Assembly (NCBI GenBank): GCA_002839705.1 | Contig: PGYO01000001.1 | Location: 248,001 to 312,000, forward strand | DNA length: 64,000 nt | Origin: Methanobacteriales archaeon HGW-Methanobacteriales-1 | Lineage (GTDB): Archaea > Methanobacteriota > Methanobacteria > Methanobacteriales > Methanobacteriaceae | Reading direction: 5' to 3' | In this document: piece by piece, positions 31,548 through 34,372 of the stretch | How positions within the stretch are numbered: position 1 is the first letter of the stretch | How the letters are laid out: each line of letters starts with the position of its first letter | Translations under genes and position numbers: made by a program | The notes under the pieces: generated by a model | Databases searched by the model: none | What the model saw: the letters and a program-made list of their open reading frames with translations, nothing else | What the model was told of the DNA's origin: nothing

Positions 31548-33533
31548 TTACAAAATAAATGGAAGTATATGGGCAAAAATGCCCCCTACAACGAATGCGG
31601 TAACTAAATTAGCAGTGGTTATCACACTGGATGCTTTTACTCCAAATTCTTTTAATAATATCCCAATTGTTGAAAGACATGGAATATAAAGCATTCCTAC
31701 TATGGCCAACACAATAAACTGTTGAGAGGTTAAAGCCAGGCTTAAATCAGTTCCCACAAATGAAACCAACGTTAAAATTATGAATTCTTTTCTTACAATT
31801 CCCAGTAAAAGCAGGACTCCTGCAAAGGCAGGTAAACCAAGCCAACCAACGGTTAGTGGTGTTAATAGATTTCCTATAAAATTTAGAACTCCTAATACAT
31901 ATAAAACTTGTATTATGGCCCCTCCAATTATAAAAATAGGAAATACTAAATAAATTAAAGATTTTGTACGGTTCCATGTCTGTTTAAATACCATGGATGC
32001 CGTAGGCATCCTTAAAGAGTGCATTTCCATAATAAGACTGGTTGATTCTCCAGGCATTGCTTTAAGAGCCAATTTTCCCATAATGAAAATTATAACCAGA
32101 TCAAGCACATACAATGCCAGAGCCCACCATATGCTGACGAATATGGCCACCAGGCTCAATATAATTATTGTTCGTGCTGCACAAGGCGCAAATGTAATGG
32201 CGAATGCTGCTAAAAGTCTTTCCCTTCTACTTTCAAGAATTCTAGTACTATCAATAGCTGGAACACTGCAGCCATACCCTAATATGAGTGGAATGAGAGC
32301 TTTACCATGTAATCCGATTTTATGCATGAAAGTATCCATCATGAATGCTACTCGGGTTAAAAGGCCGGAATTCTCAATGTAAGATAAAAGAATGTAAAAT
32401 GGGACCACAAATGGTACAATAAGAGTTAATCCTGCTACTAAACCTCCAAAAGCACCATTCCATAATATAACGGGTATGGTACTAGATGTGCTGGGATCAA
32501 CTGGCTGGAAAAAACTCAGTGCATTAGTTATTATCCCTGAAATAAAATCTCCAATTATAAAAGTCCATAGAAGCAGTCCTAATATGACCATGGTTGAAGT
32601 AATGTATCCATAAAAAGGATGGGTTAAAACATTATCCAACTTATCGGAAAAGGTGATTTTAACATCTGTTTGAATTTGAGCCCCGGAAGCAATTTTATTG
32701 GCCAGCGCATATCTTTCTGATGCCATAACTGCAAAAGCAGGTTCTTGGTGAATTTTTTCTATTCCTAATTCCAGTTGATAGGCAAAGGGGATTATATTAG
32801 GAGATTTTGAATTTACTAGATTCTTAATCTCTGGATCATTTTCCAATATTTTTATAGCCATCCATTTATTAGGATATTCTAATTCCAGATTTTCAGAATC
32901 CATTAAATCTTTCAGTAATTTAATTCTGTTTTCGATTTCCCCACCATATTCAATTGCTTTATAATCAATAGGTATTTTGTTCTCTTTTCGGGTTTTTGAA
33001 ACTTCTAAAGCTTTTTTAATTAATTCTTGGAGCCCTTCTCCTCTAATAGCAACGGTGGGAATAACTGGAATGCCCAATGCTTTCTCCAGTTTTTCAGTAT
33101 CAATAACTATTCCCTTTTGTTTGGCAATATCCATTTGATTTATACATATTATCATGGGAATTTCCATTTCCATTAATTGTATAGTAAAAAATAGATTTCG
33201 CTCTAAAACAGACGCATCTAGAACATTAATAACTACATCTGGTTTTTCATGAGCTATGTACTCTCGAGAAACTATTTCTTCCATAGAAAATGTGGAAAAT
33301 GAGTAAATACCAGGTAAATCAATTATATGAATATTATAATCATCAAATAGTAGTTTACCTTCAGCCCTTTCTACAGTTTTTCCCGGCCAGTTGCCAACTG
33401 TTTGTTTGGAACCTGTAAAGTGATTGAATATAACACTTTTACCAACATTAGCATTTCCTGCCAGGGCTATGGTAAAATCAGCATTATTATTGGTAATTTT
33501 GGGGTTATCTGCATTTTCAACTGACTTATCCAT
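31548..33533 (-). CDS. feoB: Ferrous iron transporter FeoB
   Basis: FeoB imports Fe2+ across the membrane and carries a GTPase domain. The 661-residue protein has G1 GNANVGKS, G3 DLPG (with IYSFS), G4 NQMD, a helical spacer, and a membrane part of about eight helices. Gate signatures include YGCSVPA and FAPCAART. The start at 33533 overlaps the end of the upstream regulator by eight bases and has GGAG ahead of it. FeoA is not separate but is fused to that regulator. Regulated by iron through the candidate DtxR operators at 34303-34372. Confidence 0.95.
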
Positions 33534-34302
33534 GAACCGCAGCTCCATCATTATCAATATTTTCAGGCATAATTTCTACAAAGACATTGTTGGCTATTTC
33601 TCTTCCTAAAGCAAGCTTTGATCCCCTAACCGCGATTTCAACAGGACCTTTAAACGGTGCAATTTGCATCATGCTTATGGTAGCACCCAGGGTTATCCCC
33701 ATATCCATTAAACGCCTAATAACCTTGTAATCTCCTCTTATAAATGAAACCTTACCTTTTTCATGTTCATGAAGATCAACAATGGAAACTAAATTCTCTT
33801 TTCGATTTCCAACTTGCTCCACTTCTTCATTTTTCCTTTCCATACATTCTTCACAGCTTTGAAAGCTAAAATTACATGCTGGAATTAACTCTTCATCATC
33901 AGGACATTCATCTGGCCTTTCTAAAAGATGGCAAAGGGCTCTTTCTGCATCATCAGACAATGTGTGTTCCATATCACAGGCCTGATCATGCACTTTTTCT
34001 TTTTTAATTTTTAAAATGTCATGTAAAAATTTTTCAAGTAATCTATGTTTTCTGGTAATACTTTTAGCTTTTTTAAGACCAGTTTCAGTTAAAATTGCTC
34101 CTTTATATGGAGAATATTTTACGTAACCCATAGTATCAAGCTTTTTTAGCATTTGGGTGACACTTCCAGGTGCTATATTTAAATTAGTCGATATTTTAGA
34201 AGTTTTAACTAACTGGTCTCCTTTACTCAGTTTATAAAGAATTTCCAAGTATTCTTCAATGTTTTCACTTAATGATTCATTACCTGAATTTTTGTTTGAC
34301 AT
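33526..34302 (-). CDS. DtxR/MntR-family metal regulator with FeoA domain
   Basis: An iron (or manganese) sensing repressor. The 258-residue protein has a winged helix (about residues 12-85), a dimerisation/metal domain with C109 and E112-H113 in ACDMEH, a Cys cluster (C133, C143, C150, C153) seen in archaeal DtxR proteins, and a C-terminal SH3-like FeoA domain (about 172-247). The stop overlaps feoB, so both are one operon. Two palindromes, one over the ribosome site and one by the TATA box, suggest it represses itself and feoB when metal is plentiful. Confidence 0.92.
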
Positions 34303-34318
34303 TTTAGGCCCACCTAAA
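34303..34318 (-). promoter_or_regulatory. Candidate DtxR operator overlapping the ribosome site
   Basis: TTTAGG (34303-34308) and CCTAAA (34313-34318) form a perfect inverted repeat with a four-base centre. On the minus strand it reads TTTAGGTGGGCCTAAA directly before the ATG, so it contains the AGGTGG ribosome site. It resembles iron/manganese regulator boxes (TTAGG-n-CCTAA). Confidence 0.6.
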
Positions 34319-34346
34319 TATATTAATAATATTTAAATTAAATTCT

Positions 34347-34372
34347 TATATATAATTTTTGGTTGGCCTAAA
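34347..34372 (-). promoter_or_regulatory. Promoter (TATA) with second candidate DtxR operator
   Basis: On the minus strand TTATATATAA (34346-34355) is a strong TATA box for the dtxR-feoB operon. Directly upstream, TTTTGG-TTGG-CCTAAA (plus-strand 34357-34372) repeats the operator pattern with one mismatch and would cover the TFB recognition element. Confidence 0.55.

Follow-up and report, generated by a model that had tools for sequence, protein, structure and literature searches.

Predicted operators in front of the dtxR-feoB operon

The window, by which we mean the whole 64-kb stretch of DNA analysed, carries on its minus strand a dtxR-feoA fusion gene and feoB, which presumably form one operon. 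These genes and the features in front of them are as follows.

31548–33557, minus strand: feoB, with an uncertain start codon; it overlaps the end of dtxR
33526–34302, minus strand: dtxR-feoA fusion gene, 258 aa, with Fe_dep_repress, Fe_dep_repr_C and FeoA domains
34303–34318, minus strand: op2, perfect TTTAGG-TGGG-CCTAAA (TTTAGGTGGGCCTAAA), at about +6 to +22 by the predicted start
34311–34315, minus strand: AGGTG, presumed Shine-Dalgarno sequence, inside op2 and 8 nt from the ATG
34323–34324, minus strand: predicted transcription start, inferred from the TATA position; leader of about 22 nt
34348–34355, minus strand: TATA box TTATATAT, read from the sequence
34357–34372, minus strand: op1, DtxR-type single-dimer site TTTAGG-CCAA-CCAAAA (TTTAGGCCAACCAAAA, 34372–34357)

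Read from upstream on the minus strand, the order is op1, one base, the TATA box, a spacer, op2 and the ATG, with 54 bp between op1 and op2 from start to start. The usual archaeal start lies about 30 bp past the start of the TATA box, and AGGTG is presumably the Shine-Dalgarno sequence, going by the 16S tail. Lying 1 nt upstream of the TATA box, op1 would thus cover the BRE position, and op2 adjoins the ATG (34302) and overlaps the ribosome site. Both palindromes announced in the preliminary description were found where it had placed them, op2 being perfect and ending directly before the ATG. They match the single-dimer IdeR/DtxR half site TTAGG-N4-CCTAA, op2 perfectly and op1 with one departure, the third base of its right CCTAA repeat having changed from T to A in the window sequence. 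The 19-bp double palindrome of four CCTAA repeats is not present at op1 or op2, each of which has two repeats.

The DtxR-FeoA protein matches PF01325 (E 9.6e-23) and PF02742 (E 1.6e-24), both above the cut-offs, and in its third domain PF04023 (FeoA, E 2.7e-20), and by these matches it is a three-domain relative of DtxR and IdeR. It is also the single PF02742 match in the window's genome, which is 98% complete. In the HMMER alignment, Gln50 falls on IdeR Gln43, and Cys109, Glu112 and His113 fall on IdeR C102, E105 and H106, which together with M10 are the primary metal ligands of the iron type. Since these three ligands are aligned but the M10 position is held by Glu17 in the window protein, iron is the likely, not the proven, metal. 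All 13 relatives aligned share the HTH core IAPGSVT unchanged, in step with a near-invariant operator. Four cysteines that lie after the metal domain and before the FeoA domain (Cys133, Cys143, Cys150 and Cys153) are likewise invariant in all 13 and may constitute an extra metal or Fe-S site of the regulator.

Copies of the palindrome and the genes behind them

The perfect pattern TTTAGG-N4-CCTAAA occurs at one place in the 64-kb window against 0.01 expected (1 of 100 shuffles reaches 1), and with up to one mismatch at four places against 0.62 expected (0 of 100 shuffles reach 4). The window's own genome holds five perfect places; at up to one mismatch it holds 32, where the reversed pattern gives 19, and isolated one-mismatch copies are thus largely noise; a scan for operator plus TATA that allowed three mismatches (27+33 against 22+30) also came close to background. 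With whole-genome one-mismatch counts near background, the case for op1 and op2 rests on placement and conservation, and it is on these grounds that we rejected the view of the two sites as one-mismatch noise. A search of the genome for the palindrome near iron genes had been proposed. Four of the five perfect places precede dtxR-feoB or a second iron operon, being op2 and three sites exactly 54 bp apart, and the fifth lies within a reading frame resembling an ABC ATPase (named by reading the translation).

The promoter of this second operon (contig C3, L005:7400-8160) consists of two head-to-tail 54-bp operator+TATA units and a third operator. Behind it lie a gene for a 93-aa histone-fold protein and then a feoA fragment fused to a feoB tail, which by reading the translation is an internal deletion. 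A counterpart operon in G011, a genome of a third genus, has histone, feoA and feoB behind a pair 55 bp apart, the two feo genes reading as intact there, its FeoB domains being assigned by Pfam, and operator pairs at 55 bp also occur in G017, G027 and G008. Strong histone matches (E below 1e-40) were obtained in only four of 119 genomes, namely the three of the window's genus and G011. A second DtxR-like protein with PF02742 is encoded near the second iron operon in G008 (L156:1561-2292, minus strand), where it has a FeoA domain, and in G017 (C4:434139-434645); it was not detected in the window's genome by the PF02742 search.

Elsewhere in the window's own genome (contig C8, L144:2454-4844), TTTAGGTGAACCAAAA with a TATA box stands before genes for zinc-ribbon-like, NifX-like and cation-efflux proteins, the cation-efflux transporter carrying a NifX-like domain of its own; an efflux gene under a predicted iron-repressor site was unexpected. 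In five loci (L083, L084, L085, L106 and L126) a small protein (KHALLFVGGIATAIVGKKILES...), by eye probably membrane-bound, is encoded behind operators, in four of the five beside feoA.

The upstream operator in relatives

A protein search of 119 genomes of the family gave a match in 117 at E 0.001 or better. The 110 dtxR upstream regions gathered included 30 loci (of the 117 matching genomes, with L011 replaced by L154) and 80 of 87 loci; removal of 21 duplicates, and of L012 for having no readable start, left 88 distinct regions, the window included. Within 450 bp upstream of dtxR, op1 followed by TATA is present in 64 of the 88, starting less than 80 bp from the ATG in 45 and 95–358 bp from it in 19. 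It was not found within this distance in 24 regions; ten of the proteins behind these begin MHGK, with Methanosphaera as the label of several. The preliminary description had named absence of the palindromes from relatives as grounds for abandoning its reading. For op1 this did not happen, as the site is widely kept; conservation of op2 is confined to the window's genus and a single sister genus. Since the genomes are related, counts over them are not independent.

At the third base of the right repeat the 64 dtxR sites have A in 61, C in two and T in one, the thymine being missing in 63 of 64. A comparison of 150 listed operator+TATA rows from 39 genomes, for which the search pattern admits only A or T at this base, gave CC-A-AAA in 23 of 23 dtxR promoters against 11 of 127 other promoters among the matches listed (Fisher 3.9e-19, relatedness ignored). 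The earlier wording of op1 as a one-mismatch copy at the TATA box is accurate as to the single departure and the 1-nt distance, yet "conserved asymmetric operator" describes the site better. For IdeR, Ser37 and Pro39 contact the position-3 thymine of CCTAA (PMC8464063; PMC10317159), and specific binding was abolished when this thymine was replaced by G in each repeat (PMC8464063). Lacking this thymine in one of its repeats, op1 may bind poorly, and the conserved loss of the thymine at the regulator's own promoter suggests, as far as sequence can tell, a tuned and weak operator. A demand of TFB for a purine at the third base is a possible alternative cause of the CCAAAA asymmetry; we do not adopt such a BRE demand as proven, since CCTAAA is retained, at an equal distance from TATA, in other promoters of the family.

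More generally, the operator+TATA pattern occurs in 104 of the 119 genomes of the family, with none of the reversed control in any of the 119, and the same operators precede feoA and feoB genes elsewhere in the family (names mostly given by reading translations). In thirteen of the 119 genomes no full-length DtxR match was obtained, the best E being weaker than 1e-50 where there was a match at all, and ten of these still have one to six operator+TATA sites; G012, G013 and G032 have neither a full-length DtxR match nor an operator+TATA site. In G101 (99% complete) and G058 (95%) sites are present and no PF02742 match was found, while most of the other eight site-bearing genomes are 68–77% complete, with G102 at 93% and G116 at 91%. 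The sites track the regulator only partly, which assembly gaps or another binder could explain. The possibility that sites of the op1/op2 type are bound by a different protein, either another DtxR-like paralogue or a factor unrelated to DtxR, draws on these ten genomes, on G101 and G058 above all, and on the two PF02742 matches in each of G017, G008 and G011, those of G011 (on C218 and C311) being probably pieces of one gene. We nevertheless consider it unlikely, as the sites persist in the window's 98% complete genome with its one PF02742 match, and as the palindrome precedes dtxR itself and feo genes and is the half site described for IdeR (PMC8464063).

The downstream operator and its distance from the TATA box

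Op2 is perfect throughout the window's genus (three of three genomes) and also in G008, which belongs to the sister genus (the same locus as L161, UBA587), and the 54-bp spacing from op1 holds in the same three genomes and in one of the sister genus; in G011 op2 has two mismatches and the spacing is 50. Between genus and sister genus all 12 half-site bases of op2 are identical, against 7 of the 38 bp that separate op1 from op2, the spacing being unchanged. Op2 might in part be a coincidence, in that the flanks of a TAAGGTGA-like ribosome site happen to complete a palindrome: relatives without op2 (L021 and L025) have Shine-Dalgarno sequences such as CTAAGGTGA there, few changes away, and the op2 spacer TGGG is unusual, with G as second base in three and as third base in one of the 150 listed rows. 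The retention of 12 of 12 half-site bases and of the 54-bp spacing around so changed an intervening sequence argues against such an origin, as does the distance of op2 from the TATA box, 37, the commonest value among 46 pairs, and we hold coincidence to be improbable.

Operator pairs at 39–69 bp were present in 88 of the 119 genomes, with none for the control in any, and pairs at 70–100 bp in 47 of 119, with controls likewise at 0. Among 137 distinct operator+TATA promoters in the fetched loci, which were mostly fetched by operator searches and are no random sample, the gap from the end of op1 to the TATA box is 1–2 nt in 107 and 12 nt in 13. Forty-six of the 137 have a second operator, at an op1-op2 spacing of 54–55 in 21, 67 in 11 and 51 in four; within these fetched loci the distance from the start of the TATA box to the second operator is 34–40 bp in 40 of 46 pairs, and most often (14 of 46) it is 37, as in the window. 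The same TATA distance recurs in promoters without a close start codon, and a scripted ORF rule, to which short ORFs, distant starts and a number of real genes, that of the histone-fold protein included, are invisible, found no long reading frame within 330 bp in 58 of 81 of these promoters. As the TATA distance is kept in 40 of 46 pairs while the op1-op2 spacing varies by class, the second operator appears to be set by the promoter. On this geometry the best reading of op2 is that of a roadblock whose position the promoter sets; it overlaps the ribosome site because the leader is short (about 22 nt) in the window's genus. The ribosome site as the purpose of op2 is not upheld, given that second operators keep their TATA distance also where there is no close start codon.

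A hairpin of op2 in the mRNA had also been suggested to hide the ribosome site, and for this the evidence turned out to be weak. The predicted stem has 6–7 bp, and the folded pieces gave −7, −4.3 and −6.8 kcal/mol, with folding z-scores of −0.91 and −0.16 for the genus, compared with −2.23 for its sister genus; in G011 the left half of op2 is degraded, the stem is lost and z is +0.41. Were op2 to act in RNA, its hairpin masking the ribosome site and setting dtxR-feoB translation while DNA binding is secondary, one would understand why it covers AGGTG and abuts the ATG in both genus and sister genus, and the stem and the sister-genus score are in keeping with this. The scores within the genus and the loss of the stem in G011 speak against it, as do the second operators found equally far from TATA in front of other genes and the retention of op1 without op2 in the other op1-bearing genera examined; Rfam gave three matches far below gathering scores, taken as chance. 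An RNA role is hence judged to have little likelihood, and as the main function of op2 the hairpin was demoted on the folding z-scores; it is probably a by-product.

A candidate small RNA and leader hairpins behind the operator

Several operator+TATA promoters lead into hairpins. Seven of these could be aligned on an 11-bp stem with 92.2% of cells paired; five pairs are changed on both sides (10 of 500 shuffles reach 5) and the covariation score is 0.433 (0 of 500 shuffles reach it), while the further pair types number 7, below the shuffled mean of 9.6. Folding z-scores are −3.27 to −5.21 for six of the seven, and Rfam gave no match up to E 0.5 in 15 loci. The stem is of the ACUCUUAAUUGAGG/CCUCAAUUAAGAGU type, with the tail UUUUCUUCUG in most.

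A model made from six hairpins without operator sequence (training loci L068, L070, L075, L077, L078 and L157; L150 was left out of the alignment as MAFFT misplaced its 3' stem) has matches at E 0.1 or better in 38 of the 119 genomes when strict filters are applied, with no match in the three genomes of the window's genus. Thirty matches with loci (L256–L285), among at least 49, were checked, for example L264:1501-1592 on the minus and L265:1501-1592 on the plus strand. All 30 have the operator upstream, 27 times perfect and three times with one mismatch, starting 66–161 bp before the match, compared with 109 of 14,080 random anchors in the same loci. An exact training stretch is contained in four of the 30; the operator is also present in the other 26, which include close homologues of the training set. 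Across 33 model-fitted rows, three of them on the strand opposite true matches, 7 of 12 pairs are changed on both sides, in a fitted alignment that leans to structure. We read these loci as a candidate family of operator-controlled small RNAs. A target search with the UCAACCUCAAUUA complement at up to one mismatch in 16 genomes gave no excess (139 matches against 174 for the reversed sequence), and 12 of 16 exact matches fall within the RNA locus itself; in a literature search of a limited library no RNA under iron control came up for methanogens.

Seven of nine loci examined in genus g11 have two operators, spaced 54 bp, followed by a leader hairpin with a long loop and an ORF of 32–33 aa (L081:1367-1462 on the minus strand, L086, L090, L093, L095, L107 and L121). 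The loop contains GUCAU-AAUC-CUC, and the three hairpins folded gave z-scores of −2.32, −5.57 and −1.33. The ORF resembles MLGRSKSGICGKKQ..., and Pfam returned no match for a composite g11 peptide.

Discussion

We think it probable that op1 and op2 are operators for the metal-loaded DtxR-FeoA protein of the same operon, which would repress at two points. Binding, affinities and repression are what we infer here from computed sites, positions, spacing, conservation and asymmetry, from the family of the regulator and from its being the sole PF02742 protein detected; the metal and the start site carry the qualifications given above. A dimer on op1 would cover the BRE as well as the margin of the TATA box, thereby blocking TFB and TBP, while a dimer on op2, at about +6 to +22, would block RNA polymerase at or just past the start. 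When iron is plentiful both sites would be occupied and the dtxR-feoB operon shut, and when iron is scarce the apo-repressor would leave. Both sites look compromised, op1 being one conserved thymine short and op2 having an atypical spacer since it carries the ribosome site too, and the result may be a leaky, easily relieved feedback loop. In Methanococcus voltae grown on pyrite, DtxR and FeoB rise together (PMC8516115), as expected if both are under metal-repressed control. The preliminary description had proposed metal autorepression at two points of the leader; comparison supports the DtxR type of the operators, the autoregulation of dtxR-feoB and the pairing of sites within a single promoter, but not the ribosome site as the point of op2.

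Membership in the DtxR family and the operator class are in themselves ordinary. Like the protein described here, MDR1 of Archaeoglobus fulgidus is an archaeal metal repressor of the DtxR family that acts on its own operon, with operators downstream of the promoter, and archaeal DtxR regulons have been predicted earlier. Leyn and Rodionov reportedly predicted, in 2015, archaeal DtxR (FetR) regulons of feo operons from palindromic motifs, and their work may include Methanobacteriales sites already; we know of no statement in it on TATA-anchored pairs, an asymmetric dtxR operator, overlap with a ribosome site or small RNAs.

In bacteria, a designed half site with two CCTAA repeats takes up one IdeR dimer, with an estimated apparent KD of 78 nM, and the proposed consensus is TTAGGNNNNCCTAA (PMC8464063). 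The IdeR/DtxR box of S. erythraea is built on the same TTAGG-N4-CCTAA palindrome (PMC8464063; PMC10317159), and IdeR of this organism is, like DtxR-FeoA, a three-domain metal repressor, with which the key Gln and most metal ligands align. Whereas the bacterial boxes described are mostly 19-bp double sites that take two dimers (PMC10317159), the sites found here are single half sites, of which op1, with its conserved departure, lies at the BRE/TATA and op2 beyond the predicted start. To our knowledge, the putative half sites that bracket a core promoter at a fixed TATA distance are new, as are the apparently conserved asymmetry of the dtxR operator and the merging, in one clade, of a predicted operator with the ribosome site. 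Our literature search found no paper on the Methanobrevibacter feoB promoter.

A broader picture, which we hold to be possible rather than probable, is that in much of the Methanobacteriaceae DtxR acts via single-dimer half sites bracketing the core promoter, one at the BRE and one fixed just past the start, with the dimers possibly bridged by their C-terminal domains. A swap of the C-terminal domain is seen in IdeR crystals, and the authors note that it may be an artefact (PMC8464063). The bracket, or its upstream half, would control feo operons and a structured small RNA made at low iron, an archaeal counterpart of the iron-sparing RNAs of the RyhB kind, and in the window's genus the downstream operator would have merged with the ribosome site into one 16-bp word for DNA and RNA.

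What half sites do is a question that the IdeR work raises (PMC8464063), and here an archaeal family seems to use them as its regular operator. As they are placed by a simple geometry from the TATA box, defined promoters make it possible to test this question. The operator of dtxR, conserved and probably weak, may in addition offer a natural experiment in the tuning of autoregulation by a repressor. In gut and rumen methanogens a candidate small-RNA family lies behind the same DtxR-type operator.
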